Assembly: GCA_015179125.1 (NCBI GenBank)
Contig: WHVA01000481.1
Location: 21,592 to 85,591, forward strand
DNA length: 64,000 bases
Source: Gautieria morchelliformis
Taxonomy: Eukaryota; Basidiomycota; Agaricomycetes; Gomphales; Gomphaceae
Direction of reading: 5' to 3'
Of the stretch, positions 19,144 to 51,393 are shown in pieces. The notes below the pieces were generated by a model. It made no database searches. It was not told the DNA's origin and worked only from the letters and a program-made list of their open reading frames with translations. The translations under genes and the position numbers were made by a program. Position 1 is the stretch's first letter. Each line of letters opens with the position of its first letter.

Positions 19144-19156
19144 CGCCCCCTCAAGC

Positions 19157-22100
19157 TTAATATATTCCGATTTGCTCGTTGAGAATCTTCACTCTAGGAC
19201 TAGGAAGTCCTTTAGTGAGGATATCTGCCAACATTTGTTCGGTTGGCAAATAAACGAGCTTGGCTTGTTGATTTTTGATTATATCTCGAAGGAAATATAA
19301 TCGGATGTCGAAGTGCTTGGTTCTCGTGTGTTGTTGGGTGCCATACGTGATGGCAATGGCTGATTGATTGTCTGAATAAACTTGGATGGGTCTGTTCAGT
19401 GGTTGGAATATTTCAAAAATAAAATGGCGCATCCAAAGAGCCTCTTTGCCCGCATGGGTCAGGGCGACGAATTCGGCTTCAGTTGATGAGAGGGCTACTA
19501 TCGACTGTTTCTGGCAACTCCATGAAACAGTGCCTCCATCAATCTGAAATAAGTATGCCGAATACGAACGCCTATGACTCTGTGAACCCCAATCCGCATC
19601 TGAATACCCCATCAAGCCGTCTTGATTTCTTCCAAGTGTGAGCTTGTAATGCTTCGTGCCTTTCAAATATTTGAAGACACGTTTGACTGCATTCCAGTGT
19701 GTGCCACCTGGATTTTCAAGGAATTGCGAGAGTAATGACACCGCAAATGCAATGTCAGGTCGAGTGGCTACAGCCGCCCACATCAGTGATCCTATAGCTT
19801 GCCTGTATGGAAACTTCGACATGGCTTTCTTGCCTCTCTCTGTAGAAGGACATTGGTCTTTAGATAATTTTACGGCTGGATCAAGAGGCGTAGCATAAGT
19901 CTTTGCATCTTCGAGATTAAATTTTTTGATGATCTTCTCGATGTATGCAGGTTGTGAAATTGCAATAGTTTTCTTCTGCCAGTCTCTTTCGATTTTGAGA
20001 TTCAATAGCCAATGAATCTCGCCTAGATCTTTCATACTGAAGACCTGAGCAAGATCTCGTTTGACTTCGTCCAGGACTGATTGATTCTCAGCTGTGATGG
20101 TAAGGTCGTCCACAGCTGTTGCAATGATCACATGCCCCTTTCCGCCACGTCTATAAAATACAGCCCCATCTGTGGCTGACGTAGTGAATCCTAACTTGTG
20201 GAATTCACCACTTAGACGTTTATACCATTCTCTTCCAGATTGCTTGAGGCCGTAGAGTGCTTTCTTCAAAAGTAGCACTTCGCCTTTGTCTCCAGACTCA
20301 TATCCATACGGCTGCTTCATGTAAATAGGTTCGGGCAACGTAGCATTGAGGTATGCATAGTCTACGTCCATTTGATGGATAGGCCAGTCATTCCTAGCAG
20401 CGATGGCGCATATGATCCGTAGGGAGGATAACCGAGCAACAGGTGAGTATGTCTCATCATAGTCGACTCCAAACTTCTGTGTGAAGCCTTGGGCGACCAT
20501 TCTCGATTTAGGTACTATTGGTTTCCCTTCTGGATTACGCTTCCAAAGGTAGACCCATTTATTACCGACAATATTGGCTCCAGGAGGTGGTTTGGCTCGT
20601 TCCCACACTCCCTTGTCGATTAGGGCCTCATACTCTTTGTCCATTGATTTCTTCCATATAGGATTATTCAGAGCTTCGTCTGCATTGCTAGGTTCAATTT
20701 GACTCAAATCCGGCGCCTTGTTATTGTTTTGACCGTCGGTTAGAAACGCACTGATGGCACACTCATAGCTACTGATGCCATCAATCTCGGAGGATAATTC
20801 TTGGTCGAATAAAACTTCTTTATGGTCCTCAACGTCCTCGTAAGCTAGCGTAGTCATATGTGCGCCAGCTTGTCTCTGGGTTTGAGATCTTGTTACGGGA
20901 CCTGATGGGGCCGGCTGCACTTGTTGTTGACGGATCCTTTCGCTTCTCCTTATCGGTTCAGCTTCTCTAGGTCTGTCATCAACTCCCTGAATAGGTTGCA
21001 GCTTTTCAAGATATTCCTCTGGTGCACTTTCATCAATTTCTTCGATCTTTGCCTCTTCGCTGACTAAGCGACCGGGCACAGGCACTGATGCCGGAATGGC
21101 CTTCTTCTCTTCTTTAGACGTAGGTAGCTTGGATTCCTCAATAGAAATGATTGGGACCTTTCCCTTCTTCATCTCTGAATCAAACACAACATTCCGCTCG
21201 ACAGAAACTTTGTGCGAGTCAGGCCAATAAACATAATGACCATGGCTCTGCGCAGAAATTCCTATCCACCGAGCTCTCTTGGCACGAGCTGCCAATTTAT
21301 CTCCCTGAGTGATTTTAACGTAAATTTCAGTTCCCCACGCGTGAATGTCTTTGAGATTCGGTTTTTCATGGTGAATCATCTCGTAGGGCGTTTTATCTGG
21401 TAGAGCTCTTGTATGCGTCCTGTTCCTAAGATAATTGGCATGCTGTATCGCATAGCCCCATAATATCTTAGGAAGGCCTGATTCTAGCAGCATGGCACGA
21501 GTTCTCTCAGTGAGAGTTCGGTTCAGGCGTTCCGCAACACCATTGGACTCTGGTGTGTCGTGTACCGTCAACTGATGCTTCGTGCCTTGTTTGGCTAGAT
21601 GCTGTTCGAATTCAGAGCTCGTATACTCGCCCCCTCGATCAGAAACAAGTGCCTTGATGTGCACATTTCTCTGACGAAGCATTAAAGCCTCGTAGAGCTT
21701 GTACTTTGAGAATGCTTCTGATTTGTTCGCCATGAGATAGATCACCGATTCTCTTGAGTAATCATCGATAAAGGAGACATAATATGACTTCTTATCGATC
21801 GTGAGGTGTCTTGCAGGTCCCCAGACATCAGAATAAATTCTGTCACCGAATTTTGATGTTCGGTCTCTGGGTTCTCGAGGAAGAGGTTTGCGCGCAATCT
21901 TGGCCTGAATACACGCATCACAGACAATTCTATCGCCTGTGGAGCTCAGTTCAATGCCCAATATCATGCCATGATTTAATAGATGTTGTAGGGACTTCTG
22001 CGAGATGTGCCCCATCTTTTGATGAATTTCCATGGCAGATAAACACATATGGGCTTGAGCACTTGGTGACTGGAGGTCTAGTCGATATAAGCCATTGACT

Positions 22101-23401
22101 TTCGGTGCTTGCATCAATACTTTTCCAGCAGCATTAGATATTGTGCATTTCTGGCCACCGAGTCGAATGTCGTAGCCAGCATCATCGCACCGACCGATCG
22201 AGACGAGGGTAGCAGCAATTTTAGGTGCATAGTATGTATCTTGCAACGTGACTTCTACTGTTCTATCTCCAACCTTATTGGATAATACGAGCAGTCCTGA
22301 GCCGAAGGCATCAAAGGTACCTTTGTTGGCTGCTCGGATAGTCCTCGGCTGTGAGAATTGACAGTAGTTCCTCAATAAATTTTTGTGAGGAGTCATATGC
22401 GATGTCGTTCCGGTGTCGAGTATAACTATAACTCCTGAGGATGTGCTCAAATTGAAATTAGAGCACTCGTCGAAATTGGTGAAGGCAAGATGCCCATCAC
22501 CACTTTCCTCAGAAGTAGACTCTTCTTCGGCAACATTCGCTTTTGCTTTACCCTTCTTCTTCTTCTTGCCTTTGGCTTTCTTCTTCTGACGTGGTCCTTG
22601 ACCTTCTTTACCACCTCCTTTAGCCCAGCAATTTTCGATGGAATGTCCAGGCTTTTTGCAGTTGGTGCATACATGCGCCTTCTGCCCCTTCTGGTCCTTC
22701 TTAGTAGATGAACCAATAAACACCTGCTCTTCTTGCGGGAGTGTTTTCTTCCTGTCATACTGAGCCTTTAGTACCCTAATAATATTATCAGGGACCAATG
22801 GCATCCCGCATTCTTCAAGCGAAGTGGTAAGGGCGTTCATGACTGCCTCATAGGATGGTGGAAGTGATGCAAGGATGATGTCCATGAATTCTTCTTCGGA
22901 AACTCTGGCTCCCATCTCATTAAGACGAGCATATAGGTCTTGGGCCTTGTCCAAATGATCTCTCAAGTCTCCATCCTCAGGACATCTCATACTGCGGAGT
23001 TGTCTCTGCAGGCTGGTGAGGACCATCTTGGGCTTTTTGGTCATTTCATTGACCAGTGCATCCCAAGTCTCTTTTGCTGTCTTCTGCTTCTGCAGCATCA
23101 GGGCTAATGACTCTGACACTGAGACGATGATTTGGGTCTTGGCTTGTCCTTCTCTAGCAAGGTATCTCTCCAGCTTCTCCTCGGCCTTATCCATCTGAGT
23201 TTCCTCAGCTTCTGTTAGAATATGGCCTGGGGGCATGACTGGAGGATCAGGAGGTCGAGTGACTCTCCCTTCTACATGCTTGAGTAGATTTTTGGACTCG
23301 AAATAGCTGATGAGAGTAGCTCGCCACAATGGCCAATTACTTCCATCAGTAGCAAGCTTCTCAACACCCAATAGCTTCTCAGAAGTGTCTCCGGGGCCCA
23401 T
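19157..23401 (-). CDS. Copia Gag-Pol polyprotein
   Basis: Single ORF of 1414 aa from the ATG at 23401 (an in-frame ATG at 23422 lies inside the LTR and is less likely used). Order, approximate residues: Gag/UBN2-like region (1-230, GSNWPLWRATLISYFESK), Lys-rich linker and CCHC knuckle CTNCKKPGHSIENC (about 245), aspartic protease with ILDTGTTSHM (about 328), integrase zinc region (H-x-x-x-GH...CDAC, about 460-500), integrase core (SDVWGP, SDRGGEYTSS, ESNGVAERLN), a GKEV-type linker, reverse transcriptase with YLNATLPEPIYMKQP and the catalytic AVDDLTI, and RNase H (MGYSDADWG, STEAEF, SDNQSAI). Protease-integrase-RT-RH order is diagnostic of Ty1/copia. All catalytic residues I can check are present and there is no internal stop. 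Confidence 0.97.
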   Translation of the reverse strand: MGPGDTSEKLLGVEKLATDGSNWPLWRATLISYFESKNLLKHVEGRVTRPPDPPVMPPGHILTEAEETQMDKAEEKLERYLAREGQAKTQIIVSVSESLALMLQKQKTAKETWDALVNEMTKKPKMVLTSLQRQLRSMRCPEDGDLRDHLDKAQDLYARLNEMGARVSEEEFMDIILASLPPSYEAVMNALTTSLEECGMPLVPDNIIRVLKAQYDRKKTLPQEEQVFIGSSTKKDQKGQKAHVCTNCKKPGHSIENCWAKGGGKEGQGPRQKKKAKGKKKKKGKAKANVAEEESTSEESGDGHLAFTNFDECSNFNLSTSSGVIVILDTGTTSHMTPHKNLLRNYCQFSQPRTIRAANKGTFDAFGSGLLVLSNKVGDRTVEVTLQDTYYAPKIAATLVSIGRCDDAGYDIRLGGQKCTISNAAGKVLMQAPKVNGLYRLDLQSPSAQAHMCLSAMEIHQKMGHISQKSLQHLLNHGMILGIELSSTGDRIVCDACIQAKIARKPLPREPRDRTSKFGDRIYSDVWGPARHLTIDKKSYYVSFIDDYSRESVIYLMANKSEAFSKYKLYEALMLRQRNVHIKALVSDRGGEYTSSEFEQHLAKQGTKHQLTVHDTPESNGVAERLNRTLTERTRAMLLESGLPKILWGYAIQHANYLRNRTHTRALPDKTPYEMIHHEKPNLKDIHAWGTEIYVKITQGDKLAARAKRARWIGISAQSHGHYVYWPDSHKVSVERNVVFDSEMKKGKVPIISIEESKLPTSKEEKKAIPASVPVPGRLVSEEAKIEEIDESAPEEYLEKLQPIQGVDDRPREAEPIRRSERIRQQQVQPAPSGPVTRSQTQRQAGAHMTTLAYEDVEDHKEVLFDQELSSEIDGISSYECAISAFLTDGQNNNKAPDLSQIEPSNADEALNNPIWKKSMDKEYEALIDKGVWERAKPPPGANIVGNKWVYLWKRNPEGKPIVPKSRMVAQGFTQKFGVDYDETYSPVARLSSLRIICAIAARNDWPIHQMDVDYAYLNATLPEPIYMKQPYGYESGDKGEVLLLKKALYGLKQSGREWYKRLSGEFHKLGFTTSATDGAVFYRRGGKGHVIIATAVDDLTITAENQSVLDEVKRDLAQVFSMKDLGEIHWLLNLKIERDWQKKTIAISQPAYIEKIIKKFNLEDAKTYATPLDPAVKLSKDQCPSTERGKKAMSKFPYRQAIGSLMWAAVATRPDIAFAVSLLSQFLENPGGTHWNAVKRVFKYLKGTKHYKLTLGRNQDGLMGYSDADWGSQSHRRSYSAYLFQIDGGTVSWSCQKQSIVALSSTEAEFVALTHAGKEALWMRHFIFEIFQPLNRPIQVYSDNQSAIAITYGTQQHTRTKHFDIRLYFLRDIIKNQQAKLVYLPTEQMLADILTKGLPSPRVKILNEQIGIY

Positions 23402-23406
23402 AACCC
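23394..23406 (-). promoter_or_regulatory. Primer-binding site of copia G
   Basis: The 13 bases directly after the 5' LTR read GGGTTATGGGCCC. The complement of the initiator tRNA-Met anticodon arm is GGGTTATGAGCCC (tRNA sequence from general knowledge of yeast), one mismatch. This suggests priming by an internal tRNA-iMet fragment, as in Drosophila copia. Confidence 0.55.
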
Positions 23407-23904
23407 TGTAGAGGACAGGCATTATAGGCAGTAGGTATGGACTTGTTATTCAAAAGAATAGACTAGAAATCAATTCACTCTCTCAGTGAATTTAGTGGTC
23501 ACTATAAATATATTATACACTACCTAGAAATCAATTCACTACAGAACATTTCTAGGTTAATAAATGCAAAGACTACTAGACTAATTTACTTGCCTCTCTC
23601 AGTGAATTTAGTGGTCACTGAGAGAGGGGGAAATGTGTTCCACTGCGCATGTACTACTACCCGGCCCTTTAGCGCCCAAGGGCTCGCGCGTCGAAGTCAT
23701 TTCAGACTCCGCTGGGTGCAGCCGCTTGTGAAAGTAGGAATAACAAGATGAAATAGAGAGATAAGAAATGAGTGGAAAATTTTGAAAATAACCAGAGAAA
23801 TGGATGCATAATACAAGAGCAATGTGAGAAGAAATTGGAAGGCCACACAACAAATTGGATATATTATGCTTGATTTTGGTGCAGGAGCATAAATGCACCC
23901 AACA
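23407..23904 (-). repeat. LTR G, 5' LTR of copia
   Basis: Same 498 bp as the partner at 18646-19143 with one visible substitution. That change creates an ATG in the LTR end, which extends the polyprotein frame seven codons upstream. Confidence 0.95.
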
Positions 23905-23909
23905 TATGT

Positions 23910-25361
23910 AGCCGAGGAATTCAACCGAGTCGCGATGAAACTCACATTTGTCTTCTTTGGCGAAGAGGTTGTTGAGTCGCAGTCGTCGCAAGACTTCCTT
24001 GACATGTTCAATATGTTTGGAGGGGTCACTGGAGTAGATTAGAATGTCATCCAAGTATACCACCACACAAACGTCCAAAAGGTCGGCGAAAATCTCATTC
24101 ATGAATCTCTGGAAAGCAGCAGGGCCGTTAGTGAGACCAAATGGCATAACCAACCATTCAAAAGACCCATAGCGAGTCCTGAAGGCGGTTTTCCATTCGT
24201 CACCCTCGGCCACCCTTATGAGGTGGTAAGCATGATCGAGGTCAATCTTCATATAGATGCGAGCATTCTTTGGAGCATCAAGTAAGTCAGCAATCAATGG
24301 CAATGGATACCGATCTTTTTTCGAGATCTTGTTTAAACCTCGGAAGTTGACACACAACCGAAGTGAGCCATCTTTTTTGCGAACAAACAATACCGGTGCA
24401 CCATGAGGCGAGCGTGAAGGTCGGATGCAACCGATGTTCAAGTGCTTGTCGATGAACTCGCGAAGAGCTTTGAGTTCAGAAGCTGAGAGAGAGTAGATGG
24501 GACCGATAGGCGGCGAGGTCCCTTCTTCAAGGTTGATCTTGATATTGTGCAGTCGGTGGGGGGCTAGAGTGTCAGCGCGTGCTTTGCTGAACACATCTGC
24601 AAATTCGTGATATACTTCAGGAACATGTTTTTTAACGTTCTCAGAAAGCTTGGCAGAGCTTTCTCCCGATGTTGCTCCTTGGGCGAGGAGCTCAGGCGAG
24701 GCCAGATTGAGCTGAAACACTTCGGACCCTTCCAATCTAGACGCACACATGAAAGCGGGTGCATTGATTAGGGAAACGAGGGGTGCTTGCAACTTCGGAG
24801 GTGAGTTCTGAGGCGAGGTCGAAGGCGGGGTCGAAGATGCCATAGGCAAGGTCGAAGTCGTAGCCGAAGCTGAGCGGGCTGACGTTGCCGTGGTCGCTGG
24901 AGTCGTAGTTAGGTCGATGGTCTTGAAAGTAATACTGCCCAATACCCAGTCAATCGACGGATTGTAGCGGGTGAGCCAGTTGTGGCCAAGTACCACTGAG
25001 CAACTCGAGTTGAGTGAGGTTACATAGAAGGTAACCCATTGTTGTTCGCCGGGCGGAAAGCAGATACAGAGGTCTAGAGCTTGGGTAATTGTAGTGTTAG
25101 TACTACCGTCAAATAGTTTCAAGGGTATAGGAGAGACAGGATAAGCAGGCATAGAGTACTTCTGGACAAATCTGGATTCAATAAAACAATCTGAGGACCC
25201 GCAGTCAACTAATGCAACAAAAGCGACGTTGGGAAGCGAAGGTGAGGTTAAATCTACATTAAGGGAATCTTTGGACAATGAATGAGAAGCGGCACTGAGT
25301 CTGAGCACACGGGTGAGGTTACCGCAATCCTCGGATCGTGTGGTTCCGAGGTTGCTACCTA
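23910..25361 (-). pseudogene. Gypsy B pol, proximal part (protease, RT)
   Basis: Starts in the -1 frame relative to gag at the AAA AAA TAG junction (about 25359-25366). Encodes the retropepsin segment VALVDCGSSDCFIESRFV, a variable Pro/Thr/Ser-rich linker, and reverse transcriptase (GAPVLFVRKKDGSLRLCVNFRGLNKISKKD, MPFGLTNGPAAFQRFMNEIF, VVYLDDILIYSSDPSKH) up to EFLGYI, where copia G interrupts it. The frame continues by chance into the copia LTR. Within this segment I see no stop, but the gene is split and its distal half carries stops. Confidence 0.9.
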
Positions 25362-28125
25362 TTTTTTCACCTCCATGATGGAGGCCGAAGTCCCCTCATT
25401 GGGGGTCTTCGCTGCCCAACCTTTAGAACCGCTACCGCTGGTAGACTTGTTCTTCGGGCAGTCCTTGACGATGTGGCCTTTGGTGCCGCAAAGTAGACAA
25501 AGGCCTTGGTCGACCCGACGTTGGCATCCCTCGGGAAGTAGTTTGCCATCCTTCCCGAGCTTGCTCGATATGTCCGGCTGGCTCTTGTTGTTCGAAGAGT
25601 TGTTGTTGGAACCCTTGCCGTTGTTGTTAGTCTTGTTGCGGTTCTTATTGTTGTTGGAACCGCTGGAAGACTGGTTGTTGTTAGTGGCATTGCTGCTGGA
25701 CTGATTAGTGGTGCGTGCAGGCTGGGAGCTACGACCATTGATCATGGCGTCATATTCCTTACGCTCCCAGTAATGGCTGTCGCATTCCAGCGCGAAGTTC
25801 CTAAGCTTGGTGAGGCTGCGGAATCGAGGGAAGTTGTTTTGGAACCCTTCAAGACTTTGGTGTTATTGCTAACGCCTCTGTCTATCAGAACGTGTCGTTT
25901 ACACGACTAGTAGAATACCAATTCAATGCAGCAGCACAACTGCGGAAATAATTTAATATTTGTACCTTGGTTGCAATCTGTGTAATAACTAGTCCAAGTT
26001 ATTACAGGTAGAAGGCAATGCGTTTCTTAGCTGCACTGAACAATAAACTAAAAGAGTGTGTAGGTTCAAGGACACTATCGGGGTCCAAGAGTATTCCTTT
26101 TAATAAAGAGGGAATAGGCTCCGCAGGAGAGTTTGTAAGTGGATTGGGTCGACCAACGTCAATGCACTGCAATAACGAGAGAGTAATGTGAAGTGGCTTT
26201 CGCGCACAACTTGACTTGACTTGTGAAAGTCACTGAACAGGAAAATCAACTGAACAGCTCGTCTCGGGTATTGGAGTGCTAATTGACAAGAAAATCGATT
26301 GCCAACCTCACTCTGTAGAGTTTCACCCAGCGTGTTAGGCTAAGTGGCTAAGCAGTAAAGCAACTACTTAACTAAGAATAGTTACTCTAAGCAAGAGTAG
26401 TATTCTAGTTCGGGTTAGGAACTTAGATAAGATGTGCAAGTCACACAAGCTGTGTAGGATAGAAGATGGGTAGATTGATTGCTCAAAGGGCAGGCAAAGG
26501 GCCTCCTTTTATATTGTAATGTACAGGAGCTTAGTAAGCAGGTAGAACCTTCTATCTATTAATGGAATGGGGGAAGAAGCTTGTGGAAGATGGAAGAAAG
26601 GGTTGGAAGAAACTGGCTGTTTCCAGGGGACTCTACCATGCTTCCTACCAATCAGAGCTTGATTTGTCAGGAATGACTCACTGAAAAGGGTCATGTGCCA
26701 TAGCACAGCTTGGCTGAGTCATGTACTCCTGACTCACCAAGTTGTGCCTGGATTGGTTGAGTCATTGAGGCTGTATCTCCAGATGACCATGTATTTGGCA
26801 CTCAGAAGCTGAGTAAGCAGTTCTGAGCCAATTAGGGCTCTGTAGCCATGATTACTAAGAGCACTGCTTAGCACAGCTGGGCATAGCCTGGTACAGCCCA
26901 GTTGTCATGACTGACCATGATCCCCATTGTTTGGTGAAGCCAAACAGGCTGCACAGTTGCTATGGCTGCATATAGCAACTGTTTGGGACTCAGCTGGAAA
27001 TACTGAGTGAGCCATCCTGCCGGACTTGTGGGTGCTTGGGTGACCATAAGTCCGAAAATGCGGCCACCGCCGAGGTGCCCGGCGGAGTTTGAAATAGAGC
27101 GCCGAGGACAGAGTTGTGGGTGCTAGAGGATCCACAACTCTGTAATGACAGAAAAATGGTAGTTTGAGCCATGGAGACTTTGGAAAAATAAGGAAAAATA
27201 TGAGTTAACTAGAGGAATGTTTGAAAAGCCTTTCCCCAGTTATATTAACAGCATACAGATACTGTTAATTCCTCAAATGTGTTTTTACATGTTGTCAAGA
27301 CAAAAAGAAAAGACTAGGGCTGGTTGAGCAGCCTTCCTTGGCTGGTTGAACAGCCGTTCCCCTACAGAAGTGAAGTAAGTCATCCTTGATTCGTTTGGCC
27401 AAGCCCTTGTAGGCGAAGTGTCGGAGGGCCGCATCGTTCCACTGAGTCCGAGTTGAAGCTCGGGCGAAGTCGATAAAGAATCGCGCGGCCTTGTGGTGCT
27501 CTTTCATAATGATCTTCTCGAGGTCAATCTCGGCTTGGGCAGCGTTGTCGTAAGGGCCGAAGTTGAGCTCGAGCTTGGCCTTGAAGCTGTCGCAGTCCTT
27601 GAGCCAATCTGGCTCGGGTTGGACTTCGCCGAGGATCGCCGGCTCGAAGTACTGTAGAGCTGAGCCTGACAGGTAAGAAATAGCATACTGCACCTTCGAG
27701 GCCCCAGTCTTGAACGCTGTGGGACGATCTCGGAAGTTGAGTACGCATTGAAGGAAGAAGGTGCGAAGCCTGGCCTGGCCAGTACCGTCATAACTATCCG
27801 GTTCCTTGACCTTGGCTCGTGCTTCGGACTCGCGAGGTTTCGCGAGCTTGATGAACACTCGACGCATAAGCTCGTTGTCCTCGAGGTCACCGAGGTCCTC
27901 GGGTGGGAGGTTGGGGAGGTCCCGATCGTTGTCGGAGCCTCCAGAGCCATCTCCTGGATCACCTGAAGGATCACCGGGGTTAGCCCTACCTTTGCCTTTG
28001 TTACTAGGCTCGGCGGGGTCTGTGAGGGGTATCCCCGGGGACGGTGGTGAGTCATTGAGGGCTTCCGAGAAACGTCGTTGTTCTGAGATACCCCGAAGGG
28101 TGCGGGAACGAGTCATCATGAACAT
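25359..28125 (-). pseudogene. Gypsy B gag, split by a solo LTR
   Basis: Gag begins MFMMTRSRTLRGISEQ (28125), runs through a Pro/Gly/Asp-rich linker and the conserved capsid-like region (FFLQCVLNFRDRP, AISYLSGSALQYFEP, WNDAALRHFAYKGLAKRIKDDL) to 27372, is interrupted by LTR E, resumes at 25834 (FPRFRSLTKLRNFALECDSHYW), then a long Ser/Asn-rich tract and the CCHC knuckle CLLCGTKGHIVKDC. It ends ASIMEVKK at 25359. The two halves join exactly after removing the LTR and one copy of the 5-bp target duplication. The copy at 58.6 kb has one extra stop. Confidence 0.9.
25835..27366 (-). mobile_element. Solo LTR E, 1532 bp
   Basis: Starts TGTAGGGGAACGGCTG and ends CTTGAAGGGTTCCAAAACA in its own (minus) orientation, with TSD GAAGT at 25830-25834 and 27367-27371. 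No internal coding region. It has a TATA-like ATATAAAAGG at about 26505-26515. The left part carries several GC-rich inverted segments (GTTGTGGATCC...GGCACAACTCTG). Related copies are at about 48000-49338 (plus) and 57772-58018 (truncated). The internal part of family E is nowhere in the window. Confidence 0.9.
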
Positions 28126-28169
28126 AGTGAAGAAAAGGGATACGTAGGGTGTAAGCAGTCTGAAAATAC

Positions 28170-28718
28170 TGTTACGATACGATCCCTTGTAAGGTTGACC
28201 GAGGTCGAGGACGAAACCCGAGGCAAGGTCCGAGGTTACGGGGTGAGGTTTGGATGGGGAAGTCGGAGAGGGACTTGGCTTCAGCTTATTTGCTGCGCCG
28301 ACCCTACGCACGAGTCCCAACTTTGGAGGCAAACGAATAAGAGGCGAGGTTTGGCTTAAGAGGCGAGGCTTAGAAACTAGCTAAGGATCGAAGGGATACG
28401 ATAGTTGATTTTCAGACTGAGGAGTAGGAATGCATACAGGAGGGTTTATATACGGGGCGAGGGTACGAGTCAGGGGTGAACATATTAGTGGAGATCAGGG
28501 CGAGGTCAGGGCGAGGTAATATATGAATGATGCGTGATGGAGCGGATCAGTAACTAAGGGGATACGTGCATGGGATCAAGGTCGGATATGAGCTCTAGCT
28601 CGGGCTCGGGCTTGGGTGCAGGATAAGAATCATATGTACTCGGGCACGAGTATCACAAGGCTCGGGCTCGGAAGAAAGTTACACCGGTAAGTAACCGGCC
28701 AAAGGCCGGGTTCTTACA
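28170..28718 (-). repeat. LTR B, 5' LTR of the old copy
   Basis: 549 bp, TGTAAGAACCCGGCC ... ATCGTATCGTAACA in element direction, matching the LTRs at 51394-51933 and 58019-58555. Rich in CCTCG and CCCGAG words. Confidence 0.9.
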
Positions 28719-29106: not shown

Positions 29107-29164
29107 CCCTCCCCCTCTATAGACAACTATAGGGGTCAACTACTACTCATAGAGGTCATCCATG

Positions 29165-29864
29165 TGTTACGACCGTTCATTTCCGACTTCCGACCCTCAG
29201 TTCCGCCACTCCTTCCGCCCCTCCAATAGTTCCGCACAACGTTCCGCCCCTCCGACATTTCCGACATTCCGCCCCTTGTACATTTCCCTTGTTCTTTCGA
29301 CTCTATTACTCGGACCCACCGGACCCACCTCGCCATCCATCAAAACCATATATCCGGTCACCCTTGTAGTTCGTTGTCAGATATGTTTTCCCGACCCCTT
29401 GTTCTTTGCCATTGTTCTACCTTACCCTGAACCCCCCTTGTAGTCCCATTGTTCCCAATAGGTTAGTTCCCACACATTGTACTCGACTTCCGCTTCCTCC
29501 GGAATTTGTTTAGTACAACATCATTACTTGTTGCTCTGCGCTTTGTATAAAAACCCCCTCATGTATGTCTGTTATTCTGCAATCAGATAATCACCTTCGA
29601 TACTTGATTTCCTTCGCTCCATCTCCTGTTCTTAGCACAGCGAGTCTAGCAAGATCTCAGTCTCTCTCTCAGCCTTCCGTCTTCCGCCTTCCGCCTTCCG
29701 CCTCAGTTCCGACTCAAGTTCCGACCAAACCTCTGGTCCAGTACTTTCCGACTTCCGGCTCATTTCCGAAATACCTAGGACGATAGTTCATTGGGGGCGC
29801 AACCTATAAGTTGAAGCCGCTGTCCTTTCCAGTTCCGACTTAGTGGAAATCTCGATACGTAACA
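29165..29864 (+). repeat. LTR A, 5' LTR
   Basis: TGTTACGACCG ... GATACGTAACA. Contains about twenty TTCCG words, almost all on the plus strand, including a 7-nt tandem (CTTCCGC) at about 29682-29703. Confidence 0.97.
29548..29593 (+). promoter_or_regulatory. TATA box and predicted transcript start of gypsy A
   Basis: TATAAAAA at 29548-29555. The 11-mer AATCAGATAAT (29583-29593) lies about 35 nt downstream, where transcription is expected to start, and is the exact complement of the PBS. The same arrangement is repeated in the 3' LTR. Confidence 0.7.
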
Positions 29865-29866
29865 GT

Positions 29867-29877
29867 ATTATCTGATT
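29867..29877 (+). promoter_or_regulatory. Self-complementary primer-binding site of gypsy A
   Basis: ATTATCTGATT, two bases after the LTR end, is perfectly complementary to 29583-29593. An 11-nt PBS matching the mRNA 5' end is the hallmark of Tf1-type self-priming. Confidence 0.75.
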
Positions 29878-29897
29878 CCCACCCGATAACTATCACT

Positions 29898-31325
29898 ATG
29901 CCTCCTCGTACCACAGCTACTTCAGCTCGAGCAGGAGCTGTCGAAGCTCTCTCTTATTTTGGCAATCTTAGATCCGCAGCACCAAGGCACGCGGAACCCT
30001 CCAGCAGCTCTCGTGCCGACGATGAGCTTTCCGATGCTTTTCCGCAACGTTTCGAAGAAGTTCCCGACGCTAACCCCGACGACAATCCCGACTACGACGG
30101 GAATTCGACGAGTAGCAGCGGCGAACAAACAGCAGCGTCATTCCGACGCCCAGCTCCACCACCAGGACCACCTCCAGGCGGCCCTCCAGGCGGCCCTCAT
30201 GGCGGCCCACCCGGCGGTCCCCCAGGCGGTCCTCCCGGCGGTCCTCCACCTCCAATTCCACCTCAGATTCCCGCCAACCCAGTTCCGCCCGCGCCAGTTC
30301 CGGATCTTGCACAAGCCATCGCCATGCTAGCCGGACAACTCCAGCGCCCGGCCCAAGCACCACCACGCCCCAAGACAAAGGTCCGCGAACCAGATCAGTT
30401 CGACGGTTCCGACCCCAAGAAGCTCCAGCCATTTCTGGTTCAGCTTCAACTCAATTTCCGTGATCGTCCCGACGCCTTTCCCGACGACGAACGAAAGGTC
30501 AATTATGCCCTTTCCTATCTCCGAGGCACGGCGCTCGACTATTTCGAACCCGCCCTCATGGATCCGTTCGCTCTCGTCGACTGGGCCGACGATTACCCCA
30601 ATTTCATTTCCGAACTCCGCAGCAACTTCGGACCATTTGATATGGAAGCCGATGCGGAAAACGAACTCGATAAGCTTCGCATGAAAGACACTCATAAGAT
30701 AGCTAAATATATCGTCACGTTTCAGCAGCTCGCTCCTCGAGTCCAATGGGGAGAAGCCGCACTCCGATGCCAGTTTTACATGGGCTTGCCATCCCGCATC
30801 AAGGATGAAATTGCCCGCGTCGGAAAACCCACCACCCTTACCGACCTCCGCAACCTCGCCCAATCCATCGATTCGCGCTACTGGGAAAGACACTCTGAGA
30901 TTGCTCGTGAAACCTCCGCCCAGAGCAAGAACGACAAGTCTTCCGACAAGAAGTCTGATAAAGACAAGAAGAAGACCAATTCCGGAAACACCAACTCCGG
31001 AAACAACAACAACAACAGTTCCGGATCCAACTCCGGCAACCGGAACAACAACAACACCCCTCGGAACAACCAGGCCTCTGGTTCTAACACCAACACCCGG
31101 AAGAGCACCCCGGATCTTTCCGACAAACTTGGGAAGGACGGAAAACTAACCCCTGTAGAACGCCAGCGTCGCATGGACAACAACCTTTGCCTCTTCTGCG
31201 GCAAAGGAGGTCACGTCGCTCGCGACTGCACTCGCGCTTCCGCCTCCGCTGCTAAGGCCAAAGGCCGCGCAGCAAAGACGGAAGAGAAATCCGAAGCGGT
31301 TCCCGCTGCGGATTCAAAAAAATAG
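29898..31325 (+). CDS. Gypsy A Gag
   Basis: 475-aa Gag. N-terminal acidic region, then a Pro/Gly-rich collagen-like tract (GGPPGGP repeats, about residues 85-120), the capsid-like domain (DQFDGSDPKKLQPFLVQLQLNFRDRPDAF, YALSYLRGTALDYFEP, FGPFDMEADAENEL, RVQWGEAALRCQFYMGLP), a Lys/Ser/Asn-rich linker and one CCHC knuckle CLFCGKGGHVARDC near residue 430. It forms the virus-like particle and binds element RNA. It ends DSKK with TAG at 31323-31325, overlapping the slippery run that gives Pol by -1 frameshifting. No disruption. Homologous to but clearly distinct from gypsy B Gag. Confidence 0.97.
   Translation: MPPRTTATSARAGAVEALSYFGNLRSAAPRHAEPSSSSRADDELSDAFPQRFEEVPDANPDDNPDYDGNSTSSSGEQTAASFRRPAPPPGPPPGGPPGGPHGGPPGGPPGGPPGGPPPPIPPQIPANPVPPAPVPDLAQAIAMLAGQLQRPAQAPPRPKTKVREPDQFDGSDPKKLQPFLVQLQLNFRDRPDAFPDDERKVNYALSYLRGTALDYFEPALMDPFALVDWADDYPNFISELRSNFGPFDMEADAENELDKLRMKDTHKIAKYIVTFQQLAPRVQWGEAALRCQFYMGLPSRIKDEIARVGKPTTLTDLRNLAQSIDSRYWERHSEIARETSAQSKNDKSSDKKSDKDKKKTNSGNTNSGNNNNNSSGSNSGNRNNNNTPRNNQASGSNTNTRKSTPDLSDKLGKDGKLTPVERQRRMDNNLCLFCGKGGHVARDCTRASASAAKAKGRAAKTEEKSEAVPAADSKK
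31316..31325 (+). promoter_or_regulatory. -1 ribosomal frameshift site, gag/pol of gypsy A
   Basis: Seven A residues (31316-31322) read A AAA AAA in the gag frame, directly followed by the gag stop TAG. The pol frame is exactly -1 and is open from this point to 35029. Confidence 0.75.
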
Positions 31326-34300
31326 TCAGCAGTCCTCCGGCCTCCGCACGAGCTGAGGGCTGTGTTGACCCCATTCGTGCGACAAACGAGGTTAAACTCA
31401 ACGCATCCGCTCTTTCGTCCTCCGACTCTCTCTCTGTTCCGCTCACTTCCGACACCATTTCCGCACCCCCGTTTACAGCATTGGTCGACTCCGGTTCGAC
31501 TCATTGTTTCCTCGATTCCGACTTTGTTTTGAAACATAAACTTCCGACCCGCAACATTCCGACTATTCCGCTCCGCCTTTTCGACGGGTCTTCCAACACG
31601 GGAATTTCCCAAGTTGTGGATCTGTCTATCCGTTTCGCTACTGGGGACAACCATGAAGTTACGTTTTACGTTACTCCGCTAGATGCTAGCTGTTCCGTTG
31701 TACTAGGACACAATTGGCTCACCCGATATAATCCGTCGATTAACTGGGCATTGGGTCAAATACAGTTCCGTACCCCGGATCAACTTCCATCTATTCCGAC
31801 GTCTTCTGCAAAGATGGCTCAGGCCTCTTCTGCAACTCCGCTCGTGGATTCAGTTCCGCACTCCGGTCCCGCTTTAGCACCTCCGCCCCTCGAAGCTCCT
31901 CGAATTGCGCTCGTTTCCGCCATCGCTTTCCGCGTATTGCAACGGCAAGATGATACGACCGTCTTCCAGCTTCACCTCTCCGATTCGGCTTCAGTCAAGG
32001 CTCGTTCCGCCTCGACTTCCGCTCCGGTCGACATGAGCTCAGTTCCGGAAGAATATCGTGACTTCCCGGACGTGTTCAATAAGGCCAAAGCCGACAAACC
32101 TGCTGCACATCGACCTTACGACTTGAAGATAGATTTGGAAGAAGGAGCATCTCCGCCCCTTGGACCGATCTACTCTCTTTCGCAAAGTGAACTCCTAACT
32201 CTCCGAGAGTTCGTCGATGAACATCTCAACATGGGCTTTATCCGCCCTTCGCTGTCTCCGCACGGCGCTCCGGTCCTCTTCGTCAAGAAGAAGGATGGAT
32301 CTCTCCGCCTCTGCGTCGATTTCCGCGGACTCAATGCCCTCACTAAAAAGGACAAATATCCGCTTCCGCGCATTTCCGATTTACTCGACACTCCCCGCAG
32401 GGCGAAGATCTACACCAAAATTGACCTCCGGCACGCTTATCACCTTGTCCGCATCCGGGAAGGTGACGAGTGGAAAACCACCTTCCGCACCCGCTACGGT
32501 GCCTTTGAGTGGACTGTCATGCCTTTTGGTCTAACCAACGCTCCCGCCGCTTTTCAGCGATTCATGAACGACGTATTTTCCGACCTCCTCGACGTATGCG
32601 TTCTAGTCTACATTGACGACATCCTCATCTATTCCGACACACCGGAAAAACATCGGGAACATGTCCGCGAAGTACTCCGCTGTCTCCGCAAACATCATCT
32701 CTACACAAAAGCAGAGAAATGCGAATGGCATCGCGACACGGTCGAATACCTCGGCTACATCCTCTCTCCAACAGGTCTTACCATGGCAGAGGACAAGGTC
32801 AAGGCAATTCAAGAATGGCCGGAACCCCGACGTGTTAAGGATGTGCAGTCTTTCCTTGGCTTCGCCAACTTTTACCGGCGTTTCATTTATAATTTTTCCG
32901 ACATTACTGTTCCGCTCACGCGTCTCACCAGGAAGGGTGCCCCATGGAATTTCACACCGGAATGCCGTTCCGCATTTGAAGCCCTCAAATCGGCCTTCAC
33001 CACGGCTCCCATACTCGGTTTCTGGATTCCTGATGCCCAACTTGTACTCGAAACCGACGCTTCTGACTACGCGCTAGCCGCCATTCTTTCCATCATTTCA
33101 CCCGACGACGGAGAAATTCATCCGATCGCCTTTCATTCCCGCACCTTTTCCGCCCCGGAACTCAACTACGACGTCCACGATAAGGAACTACTTGCGATTT
33201 TTGAAGCCTTCAAAATCTGGAGACATTACCTCGAAGGTCCAACTTATCCGATCGACGTTGTAACGGATCATAAGAACCTTGAGTATTTTGCAACCACTAA
33301 GATTTTGACTCGCCGTCAAGTCCGCTGGTCTGAATACCTCTCACAGTTCAACATGGTGATCCGTTTCCGCCCCGGAAAGCTCGGAGCAAAACCCGACGCG
33401 CTCACTAGACGTTGGGACGTCTACCCGAAAGAGGGAAGTAGCGACTATGCCAGCGTTAATCCGCACAATTTCCGCCCAGTATTCTCCACTGAGCAACTGG
33501 CATCGTCCCTGCGTGCCACAGCATTGCAGTTTCCGCTACTCCGCGCCTCAATTATTATGGACACCGAGTCTCTCCATTCCGACATCCGTTCCGCACTCCG
33601 TTCCGACCCCACCTCCGCAACCCACCTCGATGACCCCACCAGTCCTGGATGGTCCCTCGATTCCGACGGATTTCTCCGGTACAAGTCCCGGATTTACGTT
33701 CCGGACACCAACGATCTACGACTTCGCGTGCTCCAGCAAAGCCACGATCATCCGCTCTCAGGACACCAAGGCCAGAACAAGACCCTCGACATAATCCGAC
33801 GCACCTATACTTGGCCTCTCCTCCGCACGATGGTCCAAGACTACTGCAAGTCATGCACCACCTGTATGCGAGCCAAGCCTCAACGTCACAAACCCTACGG
33901 CCTCCTGAAGCAACTTCCGATCCCGGAACAACCGTGGAATTCAATATCCATGGATTTCATTGAGAAACTTCCTAAGTCATCTGGCTATGATACCATTCTA
34001 GTGATCGTTGACCGCCTTACAAAGCAGTCCATCTTTATCCCGACCTACGACACCATAACTTCCGCCCAGCTCGCACAGCTCTTTGTGCTCCATGTCTTTT
34101 CCAAGCACGGAATCCCTTCCCATGTCACTTCCGACCGTGGATCCGAATTCGTGTCCTCCTTTTTCCGCACACTCGGCAAGGCTCTCGACATGAAGCTCCA
34201 CTTCACTTCCGGTTATCACCCCGAAGGAGACGGACAAACGGAGCGTACTAATCAGACCCTTGAGCAGTATCTCCGCGTCTATTGCAACTACCAACATAGC

Positions 34301-35029
34301 AATTGGTCCGACCTTCTTCCACTTGCGGAATTTGCCTACAACAATGCGCCTTCCGCTACCACCGGAATTTCACCCTTTTATGCCAACAAGGGCTACCACC
34401 CGAATCTCGCCATCCACCCTGAACGCGACCTCGCCTCTGCAAGAGCCCGAGAATTCGTTGTGGAACTTGACGACCTTCACCAGCACCTCCGAGAGAACAT
34501 TACCGCTGCCCAGAAGAGATACCAAACTTCCGCCGATCGGAAACGCCTTCCGCAACCGGCATTCGAGATAGGCGACAAAGTCTTTGTCAAAGCGGAAAAC
34601 CTCCGCACCACTCGCCCCTCGAAGAAGCTCTCTGAGAAATACCTCGGTCCTTACGAGATCATCACTAAGGCCGGCAGTCGTTCTTTCACCCTCAGACTTC
34701 CTGACAAGATGCGCGCAGTACATCCGGTATTCCATGTCTCTATGCTTGAGCCAGCAGTTCCGAATACAATTCCGAATCGAGAACAACCTCCGCCTCCGCC
34801 AGTCGTCATCGACGGAGAACCGGAATATGAGATTTCGGAAATTCTCAACTCCAAGCTCGACAGACGATACCGCTGCCAACTCCAGTACCTAGTCAAGTGG
34901 GCAGGCTATGAAAACACCGACGAAGAGACCTCGTGGATTTCCGCCACGGAACTTGACCACGCCTCTGACCTCGTCTCTGACTTCCACAAGTCATATCCTG
35001 ACAAGCCTGGCCCCATTTCCGCGCCCTAG
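31322..35029 (+). CDS. Gypsy A Pol (protease, RT, RNase H, integrase, chromodomain)
   Basis: Open in the -1 frame from the slippery site to TAG at 35027. No natural ATG upstream of the protease, consistent with a Gag-Pol fusion. Domains in order: retropepsin (ALVDSGSTHCFLDSDF), RT (GAPVLFVKKKDGSLRLCVDFRGLN, MPFGLTNAPAAFQRFMND, catalytic VYIDDILIYS), RNase H ([40 protein letters not shown]), integrase HHCC (HDHPLSGHQGQNKT...CKSCTTCMRAKPQRH), DD35E core (SISMDFIEKLP, TSDRGSEFVSSFF, HPEGDGQTERTNQ), GPY/F-like module (LGPYEIITKAG) and a C-terminal chromodomain (CQLQYLVKWAGYENTDEETSWISATELDHA). The chromodomain suggests targeting to modified chromatin. All catalytic residues are present. Confidence 0.97.
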   Translation: MVSSPPASARAEGCVDPIRATNEVKLNASALSSSDSLSVPLTSDTISAPPFTALVDSGSTHCFLDSDFVLKHKLPTRNIPTIPLRLFDGSSNTGISQVVDLSIRFATGDNHEVTFYVTPLDASCSVVLGHNWLTRYNPSINWALGQIQFRTPDQLPSIPTSSAKMAQASSATPLVDSVPHSGPALAPPPLEAPRIALVSAIAFRVLQRQDDTTVFQLHLSDSASVKARSASTSAPVDMSSVPEEYRDFPDVFNKAKADKPAAHRPYDLKIDLEEGASPPLGPIYSLSQSELLTLREFVDEHLNMGFIRPSLSPHGAPVLFVKKKDGSLRLCVDFRGLNALTKKDKYPLPRISDLLDTPRRAKIYTKIDLRHAYHLVRIREGDEWKTTFRTRYGAFEWTVMPFGLTNAPAAFQRFMNDVFSDLLDVCVLVYIDDILIYSDTPEKHREHVREVLRCLRKHHLYTKAEKCEWHRDTVEYLGYILSPTGLTMAEDKVKAIQEWPEPRRVKDVQSFLGFANFYRRFIYNFSDITVPLTRLTRKGAPWNFTPECRSAFEALKSAFTTAPILGFWIPDAQLVLETDASDYALAAILSIISPDDGEIHPIAFHSRTFSAPELNYDVHDKELLAIFEAFKIWRHYLEGPTYPIDVVTDHKNLEYFATTKILTRRQVRWSEYLSQFNMVIRFRPGKLGAKPDALTRRWDVYPKEGSSDYASVNPHNFRPVFSTEQLASSLRATALQFPLLRASIIMDTESLHSDIRSALRSDPTSATHLDDPTSPGWSLDSDGFLRYKSRIYVPDTNDLRLRVLQQSHDHPLSGHQGQNKTLDIIRRTYTWPLLRTMVQDYCKSCTTCMRAKPQRHKPYGLLKQLPIPEQPWNSISMDFIEKLPKSSGYDTILVIVDRLTKQSIFIPTYDTITSAQLAQLFVLHVFSKHGIPSHVTSDRGSEFVSSFFRTLGKALDMKLHFTSGYHPEGDGQTERTNQTLEQYLRVYCNYQHSNWSDLLPLAEFAYNNAPSATTGISPFYANKGYHPNLAIHPERDLASARAREFVVELDDLHQHLRENITAAQKRYQTSADRKRLPQPAFEIGDKVFVKAENLRTTRPSKKLSEKYLGPYEIITKAGSRSFTLRLPDKMRAVHPVFHVSMLEPAVPNTIPNREQPPPPPVVIDGEPEYEISEILNSKLDRRYRCQLQYLVKWAGYENTDEETSWISATELDHASDLVSDFHKSYPDKPGPISAP

Positions 35030-35163
35030 TCAATTCCGACCTCATTCCGACACCACGGCTTGCTTACATTTCTCAAGTCATAATTCAAAAGAAAATCCGA
35101 TTATTATTCCGATATGCTAATTTCCGACACTTCAAGAAAAATACTACAAGTCACCTCGACACC

Positions 35164-36493
35164 CTACTCCTCCCTCATGGTCTCCGCCTCGACCTCCCTT
35201 TCCGCTTCCGGATCCTTTTCCGACTCTCCTACCTCGACGACCACCAACTCCGTGTCTAACCGTTCCCTCATCGTTTCCGCCTCTTCCTCGTTCTCTGCTT
35301 CCGCACCCTCTTCCGCATGCCCCATCGGCACACTCACCAGCTCTGTCTCCACCCTCGTTCCCGCCTCATTCTCCTGCTCCTCTCGCAACCCTAGTTGGTC
35401 CCGGAACAAATCGTTCCGCCACCGGAACTCCCGCTTCAGCTGCTCCAAAACTGTTGACATTACAGTCATCTGATTTTGGAATGACAACACTTGGTGTTGT
35501 TGAACCTCTGCCATTTCCAGCAAAATGTTCCGGATCCCGCGCTGCGTTTTCCGGATCCCCCTCAAGGACTCGGCGATATCGAGTAGGGGCGACGCCATGG
35601 TGAAGTGGTTTAACACCGCTGTTTCCGACTGCCCGGTCACCGGAAAGCCTTCCGCGCCTTTTTTCCCGCTCGACCTTGGTTTTGACTTTGGGGTTTCTGG
35701 CCCCTCGGTCTCGACTTTCCGCCTTTTCCGCTCCACCCTCGCGGAACAACCGTCCACGACGCACCGCCTCTTCTTGTCACGGCACCGATTGCAAGCGGTT
35801 TCCCGCGGATTTTCCGACCAAATACACTCAAGCCCCTTCACCTCGCATGTGTCGCAGGGCGCCTTTTCTTCTTCCCCGTCCCTTGTCTTCCGTTTCCGGG
35901 TCACGGGATTCTCCGGCCCCAACTCCCGGAGGTCGACAATGCGGGCCATCTTGTTCTTCCTGGCCTGTTGAAATTCGTCCGCCCCCCTTTTCCGATCCGC
36001 CACAAGGTTCACAACAGGAACTACTTCCTGTTGTTTTCCCTTCCCTTCAGGAGACGGTGTGTTTTCCGCCGTGTCTTCCGACTCCGGTTCGGAATCGGAT
36101 TCGACGATTATTTTCTGCCAAGTTTCTTAAGTCAGTCTCGGGATGAGACTCAGAACCTTTCCGACTCACCCGGGATTGTTCCGTTTTCTCCGCCACGGCC
36201 TTGTTTCCCGCAGCCTTTTTGGCCGCATCCCGTTTCCGCTGTTCTTCACGGACGCGCGATTCCTCCTCGCGACGTTTGCGGTCACGCTCCTCCTTCTCTT
36301 TCCGCTCCCGTTCCAGACGCTCCTGTTCCTTGCGCTCTTTCTCTTTGCGCTCCTCCTCCAGACGCTCTTTCTCCTTCCGCGCCGCTTCCTCGGCCTCGCG
36401 CTTTTCGGCCAACTCCTTTTGCGCGAGCATGTCAGCAAAGTGTTCTTTCATCTCAGCACTGGTCATTTTGGAGAAGTCGACTGGAGTGCTCAT
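35164..36493 (-). CDS. Antisense Zn2Cys6 coiled-coil protein carried by gypsy A
   Basis: Spliced gene opposite to pol, converging on it (134 nt between stops) and starting about 120 nt inside the 3' LTR. Exon 1 36493-36170, intron 36169-36115 (GTGAGT donor, CTGAC branch-like site, CAG acceptor, phase 0), exon 2 36114-35164; 424 aa. Residues about 10-105 form a long charged helix (EKERLEEERKEKERKEQER). The centre has a basic stretch and a binuclear cluster with Cys at 195, 198, 205, 216, 219 and 226 (C-x2-C-x6-C-x10-C-x2-C-x6-C), followed by RVERKRRK, a possible nuclear signal. Further on is a second helical region (residues about 275-345) and an acidic tail (EAENEEEAETM, DPEAEREVEAETM). Known Zn2Cys6 proteins are fungal transcription factors binding CGG/CCG triplets. 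Role in the element unknown; regulation or anti-silencing is inference. Confidence 0.85.
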
Positions 36494-36615
36494 GATGGAC
36501 TAAACAGAAGACGCGTCTTGCTTCCCGCCTATCTTTCAAACTCCGACGCATTTGTTCACAGGTCACGTGATTCCGACTTGTGGTCTCGCGGGGCTCGACC
36601 TTAGAAGGGAGATAC

Positions 36616-37314
36616 TGTTACGACCGTTCATTTCCGACTTCCGACCCTCAGTTCCGCCACTCCTTCCGCCCTCCAATAGTTCCGCACAACGTTCCGCCCC
36701 TCCGACATTTCCGACATTCCGCCCCTTGTACATTTCCCTTGTTCTTTCGACTCTATTACTCGGACCCACCGGACCCACCTCGCCATCCATCAAAACCATA
36801 TATCCGGTCACCCTTGTAGTTCGTTGTCAGATATGTTTTCCCGACCCCTTGTTCTTTGCCATTGTTCTACCTTACCCTGAACCCCCCTTGTAGTCCCATT
36901 GTTCCCAATAGGTTAGTTCCCACACATTGTACTCGACTTCCGCTTCCTCCGGAATTTGTTTAGTACAACATCATTACTTGTTGCTCTGCGCTTTGTATAA
37001 AAACCCCCTCATGTATGTCTGTTATTCTGCAATCAGATAATCACCTTCGATACTTGATTTCCTTCGCTCCATCTCCTGTTCTTAGCACAGCGAGTCTAGC
37101 AAGATCTCAGTCTCTCTCTCAGCCTTCCGTCTTCCGCCTTCCGCCTTCCGCCTCAGTTCCGACTCAAGTTCCGACCAAACCTCTGGTCCAGTACTTTCCG
37201 ACTTCCGGCTCATTTCCGAAATACCTAGGACGATAGTTCATTGGGGGCGCAACCTATAAGTTGAAGCCGCTGTCCTTTCCAGTTCCGACTTAGTGGAAAT
37301 CTCGATACGTAACA
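36616..37314 (+). repeat. LTR A, 3' LTR
   Basis: 699 bp, identical by eye to the 5' LTR apart from one deleted C in a C-run. Preceded by the purine-rich tract AGAAGGGAGATA (36603-36614). Confidence 0.97.
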
Positions 37315-37319
37315 CCATG

Positions 37320-49338: not shown

Positions 49339-49969
49339 GAACCTCGCAGTCCACCCTGAGCGCGACCTCGCCTCGGCACGAGCTCGAGACTTCGTGGTTG
49401 ACCTGGACGAGCTACACCAGGAACTTCGCCGCACCATCCTCGAGGCTCAGAAGACCTACCAAGCCTCGGCCGATGTTCGCCGCAAACCCGCTCCTGATTT
49501 CCAAATAGGATCCCTCACCTTTGTAAAGGCACAGTACTTCCAAACAACTTGGCCTACCAAGAAGCTCACCGAGAAGTTTTTGGGTCCTTTGGAGATCATT
49601 TCCCGAGCAGGTACTCACTCCTTCACTCTTCGACTTCCAGAACACATGCATTCGGTCCACCCAGTATTCCACGTATCTATGCTTGAACCAGCCTCGCCCA
49701 ACACCATCCCAAACTGAGTTCAGCCGCCTCCACCCCCAGTCGTTATCGACGGCGAGCCCGAGTTCGAGGTCTCCGAAATCCTCGACTCGAAGATCGATAA
49801 TAGATGAAAGAGCTGCAAGCTGCTCTATCTTGTTAGGTGGACTGGTTACGAAGGTACCGACAAAGAAACCTCGTGGATCCTCGCTTCCGAGCTTGATCAT
49901 GCCTCGGAGCTGGTCACTGACTTCCAGGAATCTTACCCGGGCAAGCTGGGCCCTTTGACTGCTCTATGA
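49339..49969 (+). pseudogene. Gypsy B integrase end and chromodomain, second copy
   Basis: Corresponds to 62913-63539 of the third copy: NLAVHPERDLASARARDFVVDLDELHQELRR ... GPLEIISRAGTHSFTLRLPEHMHSVHPVFHVSMLEPASPNTIPN, then TGA at 49715 (CGA in the third copy), then the chromodomain segment CKLLYLVRWTGYEGTDKETSWILASELDHA with another TGA at 49805 (CGC in the third copy). Ends PLTAL at about 49969. Upstream pol is missing. Confidence 0.9.
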
Positions 49970-50086
49970 TCGTTTTCTTGTTTAACCCCCATGACCCAGT
50001 AGTTAGATAACAAAATCCCCTCGCAATCGAACAAACAAACAAAATCAATACAATCCAAGAAAAATTCCATTATTCCATTTACTAGT

Positions 50087-51223: not shown

Positions 51224-51393
51224 ATTCGTTGGCACTTGGGTTTGCTGCCTCCTACCCACCCTTTATCTAACCTCGGCTACGATTAAGCTTCGCCTTTCCG
51301 GCGACTTAACATCGGGCCGGGATCTAGATTCGAGGATAGGCGAACCTTGTTCATATTATGGCCTCGAGGGTCTCGGCCATAAGGAGGGGATAC

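Follow-up and report, generated by a model that had tools for sequence, protein, structure and literature searches.

Does a gypsy retrotransposon of the fungus Gautieria morchelliformis carry a functional gene of its own on the antisense strand, and, if so, what might the product do? The locus lies in a 64,000-nucleotide stretch of contig WHVA01000481.1, here called the window. A first-pass annotation had noticed that, between pol and the 3' LTR of an intact gypsy element, the opposite strand holds two open segments joined by a short intron, and that the encoded protein has six cysteines spaced as in fungal Zn2Cys6 DNA-binding domains.

A spliced-looking antisense gene in an intact chromovirus

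The host element, which we call element A, is a complete Ty3/gypsy chromovirus at 29165-37314 with open gag and pol frames, in agreement with the first-pass reading. Its 5' LTR (29165-29864, plus strand, 700 bp) and 3' LTR (36616-37314, plus strand, 699 bp) have the termini TGTTACG...CGTAACA and differ solely by a single 1-nt indel. The 5-bp target-site duplication CCATG flanks the element on both sides (29160-29164 and 37315-37319). Since the LTRs are otherwise alike and CCATG is present at both ends, the insertion is probably recent. The gag gene (29898-31325, plus strand, 475 aa) matched Ty3_capsid and Retrotrans_gag, and its CCHC knuckle scored below the cut-off for that domain. The pol gene (31481-35029, plus strand, 1182 aa) encodes, in the order PR-RT-RH-INT typical of chromoviruses, protease, reverse transcriptase, RNase H and integrase, together with a Tf2-1 SH3 domain and a chromodomain. 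On our reading of the sequence, AGAAGGGAGA (36603-36612, plus strand), immediately 5' of the 3' LTR, resembles a polypurine tract. The window gave no match to Rfam families at their gathering scores, and a scan for tRNA genes likewise found none.

The antisense gene is encoded on the minus strand. Exon 1 (36170-36493, 108 codons, ATG at 36493) is charged and rich in K/E/R, and exon 2 (35164-36114) contains 316 codons and the stop; dN/dS was 0.158 for both exons. They are separated by a probable spliceosomal intron of 55 nt (36115-36169, minus strand) that begins with GTGAGT and ends with CAG. Joined, the exons form an uninterrupted frame of 424 aa; read unspliced, the window gene contains stops. 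The coordinates, protein length, intron length and splice sites given in the first-pass annotation were therefore correct. The gene had also been described as antisense to pol. It does lie on the opposite strand between pol and the 3' LTR, but it does not overlap pol, being located 134 nt past the pol stop and ahead of the 3' LTR.

Using the antisense protein, we searched the genome (122 Mb, 1113 contigs) and obtained 1073 candidate places; 99 of them were scored, and 135 matching stretches were listed. The alignment of copies had 31 rows: 29 fetched loci, L042 and the window (L010 is the window itself; L039-L041 repeat three of the fetched loci). The GTGAGT and CAG signals were intact in all 31 copies, which had introns of 48-57 nt, and the nine splice-site bases were identical to those of the window in each of the 30 other copies. 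The intron interior was 72% identical to that of the window across all copies; among the 18 divergent ones the figure was 58%, compared with 73% for their exons. The CTGAC branch-like site pointed out in the first pass occurs in the subgroup to which the window copy belongs, without being conserved across copies. Right after GTGAG, the intron contains TCGGAAA, in which the C is kept in 27 of 30 copies and the other bases in 97-100%, unlike the rest of the interior.

In 21 of the 31 copies the intron length is divisible by three, and 18 of these introns were stop-free and can be read through in frame; in the remaining 13 copies the unspliced frame is broken. A retained-intron product is possible, judging by the frame, in those 18 copies. 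Where the intron is 54 nt long (14 copies), pN/pS was 0.91 in the intron, compared with 0.25 in exon 1 and 0.23 in the opening 100 codons of exon 2. By this measure the intron bears no sign of protein-level constraint, and its codons look unconstrained. Of the distinct indels relative to the window, 23 of the 29 in the exons were multiples of three; the same held for 1 of 10 indels upstream and for 2 of 20 downstream. A corresponding count for the intron (0 of 9) was discarded, because it depends on taking the 55-nt intron of the window as the reference. The earlier argument that an intron can persist only in an antisense gene was overstated: an intron in the sense orientation also persists when genomic RNA escapes splicing.

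Selection on the frame was analysed by pairwise dN/dS in 28 copies (353 pairs; L015, L035 and L042 were dropped). The antisense frame had a median dN/dS of 0.160 and 7 internal stops, and the other five frames had values of 1.49, 1.52, 1.21, 0.32 and 1.84, with 62-352 stops. The region of the six-cysteine cluster (aa 181-232) gave 0.069; the 3' part of pol, in 25 copies, gave 0.089. The closest antisense pairs (dS 0.01-0.15, 32 pairs) had a dN/dS of 0.32, as expected where recent neutral decay is included, and distant alleles (dS 1-3, 63 pairs) had 0.135. Exon 2 was open over at least 281 aa in 22 of 30 copies, with acidic C ends, and was cut short in 8. The check for neutral decay across family A copies, which the first-pass annotation had proposed, thus found a conserved frame. 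Splice sites, open frame and dN/dS together support the notion that the retrotransposon carries a real, intron-bearing protein-coding gene on its antisense strand and that this gene is under purifying selection.

The cysteine cluster and a second antisense gene

From the N to the C terminus, the protein comprises a charged K/E/R segment, an acidic patch, an RKRKTR basic patch, the cysteine cluster, an RKRRK basic patch, a long helix and an acidic tail. The cluster (35761-35856, minus strand; CDTCEVKGLEC-x10-CNRCRDKKRRC) has the spacing C-x2-C-x6-C-x10-C-x2-C-x6-C, exactly as first read, and includes a basic C-x2-C-R-x-K-K-x-x-C loop. Zn2Cys6 domains are spaced C-x2-C-x6-C-x5..12-C-x2-C-x6..8-C, and the window protein, with its x10 loop, fits the spacing of PF00172. 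The cluster was aligned in 18 sequences, namely the window and 17 of the 22 open copies, with near-duplicates left out; all 18 share five of the cysteines, and 17 have the sixth.

Against Pfam Zn_clus the window protein scored 17.9 bits, which is below the gathering score of 21, and the Pfam search of this protein gave no match besides Zn_clus. Among 18 exon-2 sequences, 15 matched Zn_clus at E <= 0.1 (best 1.7e-4). When the half-clusters were tested separately, the first corresponded to Zn_clus positions 18-35 and the second, weakly, to positions 1-13 (8.6 bits, E 2.8). The halves are thus swapped relative to Zn_clus: the canonical order places the basic half first, and here the basic R-x-K-K loop stands second. 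The Zn2Cys6 identity proposed in the first pass keeps its spacing and basic loop but falls short in score and in the order of its halves. We regard the cluster, from its sequence, as Zn2Cys6-like rather than as a proven member of PF00172. Because of the low score and the swapped halves, a Gal4 mode of binding cannot be assumed.

AlphaFold predicted a long helix over exon-2 residues 164-254 (35353-35625, minus strand), with block-mean pLDDT of 90-96 over residues 181-240. In this model the helix is a possible coiled-coil dimer interface. The cluster itself had a pLDDT below 50, i.e., low confidence, and the mean was 56.5. Comparison with solved structures matched only a V-ATPase subunit (E 0.083 and 0.22), which we disregarded. 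No gypsy pol was found near eight Zn_clus loci (L001-L008, ~3.1 kb each).

A second gypsy family, B, is present in the window at 15449-28718 (minus strand), 49339-51934 (plus strand) and 58019-64000 (plus strand, cut by the window end), and it too has an antisense ORF located after pol, as in family A. One such ORF (50278-50961, minus strand, 227 aa) encodes the cluster CAHCEERDYTC...CVWCRTRSLGC; near the C end its frame differs from that of longer copies. Another (15449-16177, plus strand), antisense to the minus-strand B element, lacks the first part of the cluster and keeps the second half. A genome search with the B antisense protein gave 505 candidate places, of which 150 were scored, and 155 matches; many of the frames were open for ~290-300 aa. 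All six cysteines were invariant in 7 of 7 aligned sequences (six of eight fetched loci plus the window; L046 was left out and L043 is the window). The pooled dN/dS of the B antisense frame was 0.40 and the median 0.35 (28 pairs, 8 sequences), versus 0.51-1.31 for other frames. The B copies are close, and this evidence for selection is weaker than that for family A. The Zn_clus profile gave no match to the B cluster. Since hhalign aligned the A and B clusters at a probability of 0.65%, we do not claim homology between the two antisense proteins. Nested in the minus-strand B element is a copia element (18646-23904) with identical 498-bp LTRs and one ORF of 1421 aa; a solo LTR of the same copia family lies at 55964-56461 in the opposite orientation.

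Exchange of the antisense block and CGG-type motifs

The antisense genes are far more diverse than the elements that carry them. Median dS was 0.795 for the antisense gene versus 0.158 for the 3' part of pol (300 pairs, 25 copies with both regions). In 72 pairs, pol dS was below 0.15 yet antisense dS exceeded 0.5, and the antisense genes fell into 7 allele groups. For example, L042 and the window are 97% identical in gag, 97-99% in pol and 95-96% in the LTR, yet 69% in antisense exon 2. The L042-type allele is established, being found in dozens of copies with 84-96% identity. On the pol side, the boundary of the diverged block differs between L041 and L042. Because the block ends at different places, the pattern points to a recombining cassette, exchanged for example by template switching, rather than to a locally raised mutation rate. 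A gene that is kept by selection and swapped between copies suggests that elements may bring their own regulator.

Zinc-cluster factors are described as typically binding CGG triplets as dimers (PMC5559640), which makes it attractive to think that the protein binds its own element. The sense strand of element A contains 122 TTCCG and 32 CGGAA versus 11.3 and 4.9 expected from base composition. A 646-bp part of the LTR has 15 TTCCG versus 1.5 in dinucleotide shuffles (0/200). In gag, pol and the antisense coding sequence, CGGAA and TTCCG were more frequent than in synonymous-codon shuffles (0/1000 each; 2/1000 for TTCCG in the antisense coding sequence). The 260 nt upstream of the antisense ATG, extending into U3 of the 3' LTR (36494-36753, minus strand), contain 9 CGGAA in a single orientation. 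Of the 30 other copies, 29 have 4-9 CGGAA in this interval and at most one in the opposite orientation, counts that are not independent, as the copies share a common ancestry. L035 has no upstream CGGAA, and both L015 and L035 lack the antisense ATG at that place.

Per kb, CGGAA occurred 9.4-19.9 times in A copies, 1.1-6.2 times in B (8 loci) and 1.3-3.6 times in the Zn_clus loci (n = 8). Family B was enriched in another motif set: its pol has 19 CCTCG versus 7.1 and 9 CCGAG versus 2.7 (0/500 each), along with 7 TTCCG versus 3.2 (11/500), and its LTRs contain 6-9 CCTCG each. Neither motif set was enriched in the copia coding sequence and LTR.

A further family, D (member in the window at 52114-54798), is a very abundant, compact gypsy group (L051-L060) with ~480-bp LTRs and a pol that is ~42% identical to that of A; 121 matches to its integrase were scored among 5453 candidates, nearly all at 93-95%. 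No antisense six-cysteine frame was found in the stretches of family D that we read (8 downstream, 2 upstream), and two copies, each read at both ends, have their LTR closely behind pol. The two D pol frames tested were as rich in CGGAA/TTCCG as A, on both strands; the pol of L054 has 29 TTCCG and 32 CGGAA versus 9.0 and 8.2, with no strand bias. We therefore rejected the idea that the motif occurs only where the antisense gene does. Since family D is equally saturated with CGGAA in the gene-less copies read, the link from protein to motif is offered here as a hypothesis. Retention of CGGAA in the LTR and leader of 27 copies was 0.759 versus 0.776 for other 5-mers, i.e., there was no excess. 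When CGGAA was lost from these regions, the outcome was often TGGAA (34) or CAGAA (20). Changes of this kind point, by their sequence, to CpG methylation decay of the elements.

A proposed role and its rivals

Sequence comparison supports the gene, its intron, purifying selection, cysteine conservation, the recurrence of such a gene in family B and the exchange of the cassette. As to function, our main reading, to which we assign a probability of roughly 0.55, is that element A is a chromovirus with an accessory antisense gene for a nuclear, dimeric zinc-cluster protein that regulates the element. The gene would be transcribed from the 3' LTR side and its transcript spliced once; the protein would enter the nucleus, dimerise through the long helix and bind CGG-containing sites in the element's own DNA, i.e., the CGGAA arrays of the LTR, the antisense promoter and the body of the element. 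Bound there, it may regulate transcription or silencing of the element, either like HBZ or in the manner of VANC, where an element's own protein binds a family-specific motif and removes methylation. Of these roles, we consider it most likely that the protein acts in trans on LTR transcription, as an activator or an anti-silencing factor rather than as a repressor. What favours a zinc-cluster factor is the presence of the usual parts of such proteins, namely the CRDKKRRC loop, the RKRRK patch, the long helix and the acidic tail. The reading is weakened by the score of the cluster below the Pfam cut-off with its halves swapped, and by the B cluster to which Zn_clus does not match. It is weakened further by the motif in gene-less family D, by the retention of CGGAA without excess, by the frequency of the motif in coding sequence, by the intron frame that is open in 18 copies and by the low confidence of the cluster model. 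A bolder extension is tentative, and we doubt it more than we believe it: the A protein with CGGAA and the B protein with a CCGAGG-like motif would constitute family-specific self-recognition codes in which the motif saturates LTRs and synonymous sites and the protein activates or de-silences its own family in trans; the gene-less family D would have adopted the code of A and would ride on the A protein.

Could a real accessory protein act on RNA or cDNA instead, in export, packaging or as a chaperone, with the CGGAA saturation caused otherwise? The strand bias in element A is what an RNA-level motif predicts, the motif is also frequent in gene-less copies of family D, and the A cluster is non-canonical. 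Yet the L054 pol of family D lacks such a bias, and in its basic loop, basic linker and long helix the protein is similar to DNA-binding zinc-cluster proteins; we consider an RNA or cDNA role unlikely. Some other LTR elements encode self-limiting proteins, and a self-repressor serving copy-number control or competition between elements would give the cassette diversity a meaning, as escape from repression by rival copies. The dS contrast between antisense gene and pol, the 7 allele groups and the differing block ends in L041 and L042 fit this explanation. It is made quite improbable by the dN/dS of 0.135 between distant alleles and by the richness in CGGAA of every fetched A copy, both of which argue against a change of specificity.

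Two explanations deny the gene a role in the element. One holds that a host gene was captured once and has been carried as a passenger. Retrotransposons do capture genes, and a spliceosomal intron and a zinc-cluster-like domain look host-derived. Capture of a passenger is nevertheless very improbable: the frame is conserved to a dS of ~1 in many copies, the protein has 1073 candidate places in the genome (99 scored), a dN/dS of 0.16 already disfavours a passenger, and no host homologue was found among the ~8000 database candidates sharing most words that were scored per search. The other explanation is that the frame is open by chance or mirrors a sense-strand gene, as a GC-rich sense strand does have long mirror ORFs. 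In 28 copies, however, the sense frames have 62-102 internal stops and dN/dS of 0.32-1.84 versus 7 stops and 0.160 for the antisense frame. Splice-site identity and frame-specific dN/dS across the other copies, together with the contrast in pN/pS between intron and exons, refute a chance or mirror frame.

Several known systems resemble parts of our main reading, an element-encoded antisense regulator. The plant gypsy elements Retand, Grande and RIRE2 likewise have an antisense ORF between pol and the 3' LTR with predicted DNA binding, and the Grande antisense protein is described as localising to the nucleus (PMC11963269). In element A the same arrangement is conserved across copies. Retand-type elements differ in being plant non-chromoviruses with a TRP28 domain, as opposed to a fungal element with a chromodomain pol, an intron and a six-cysteine cluster; the words "intron" and "zinc" are absent from the main text of that paper (PMC11963269). 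HBZ of HTLV-1, too, is a regulator encoded in antisense, and the mRNA from which it is made can be spliced or unspliced (PMC6237760; also PMC11963269), but it is a retroviral bZIP protein, and we draw the likeness without a claim of homology. VANC of Arabidopsis VANDAL is an element-encoded anti-silencing factor associated with a dense, short, family-specific motif in one orientation, and a related VANDAL family uses other motifs, according to PMC5735166. VANDAL differs in that it is a DNA transposon whose motifs are mainly non-coding and often in tandem repeats, with binding experimentally shown (PMC5735166). Unlike VANDAL, element A has motifs throughout its coding sequence as well, and saturation is not restricted to protein-bearing elements, as gene-less family D carries it too. 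Gal4-type Zn2Cys6 factors share the six-cysteine spacing, basic KK loop, linker and long helix, and differ from the present protein in the order of the half-clusters, the Pfam score and the presence here of no other Pfam domain. In Didymium, an antisense homing endonuclease gene of a mobile element is likewise expressed by way of a small spliceosomal intron, but that element is a group I intron in the rDNA of a myxomycete and its product is an endonuclease (PMC9548176).

Among the literature matches listed, we found no fungal antisense retrotransposon gene. The first-pass remark that this is not an established fungal system agrees with the matches listed, but the principle is known from plant elements and HBZ. 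Plants and deltaretroviruses already offer examples of antisense accessory genes in LTR elements. The present case is a fungal one, with strong sequence evidence for a functional antisense protein, a DNA-binding-type domain, allelic diversity on a near-constant backbone and an abundant candidate binding motif. Should this motif prove to be the target, fungi would possess an anti-silencing system comparable to VANC. If it is not, saturation across several gypsy families would itself need explaining.

The database searches with the antisense protein (~8000 candidates sharing most words scored per search) gave three hits, all from Gautieria morchelliformis. A genome locus matches one database protein, P0003, at 92-98% across most of the length of P0003. 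Another, P0001 (339 aa), opens with exon 1 of the A antisense gene (~65 aa) and continues as a PF20414-labelled protein; the transposon exon may have become fused to a different gene, or the gene model may be wrong.
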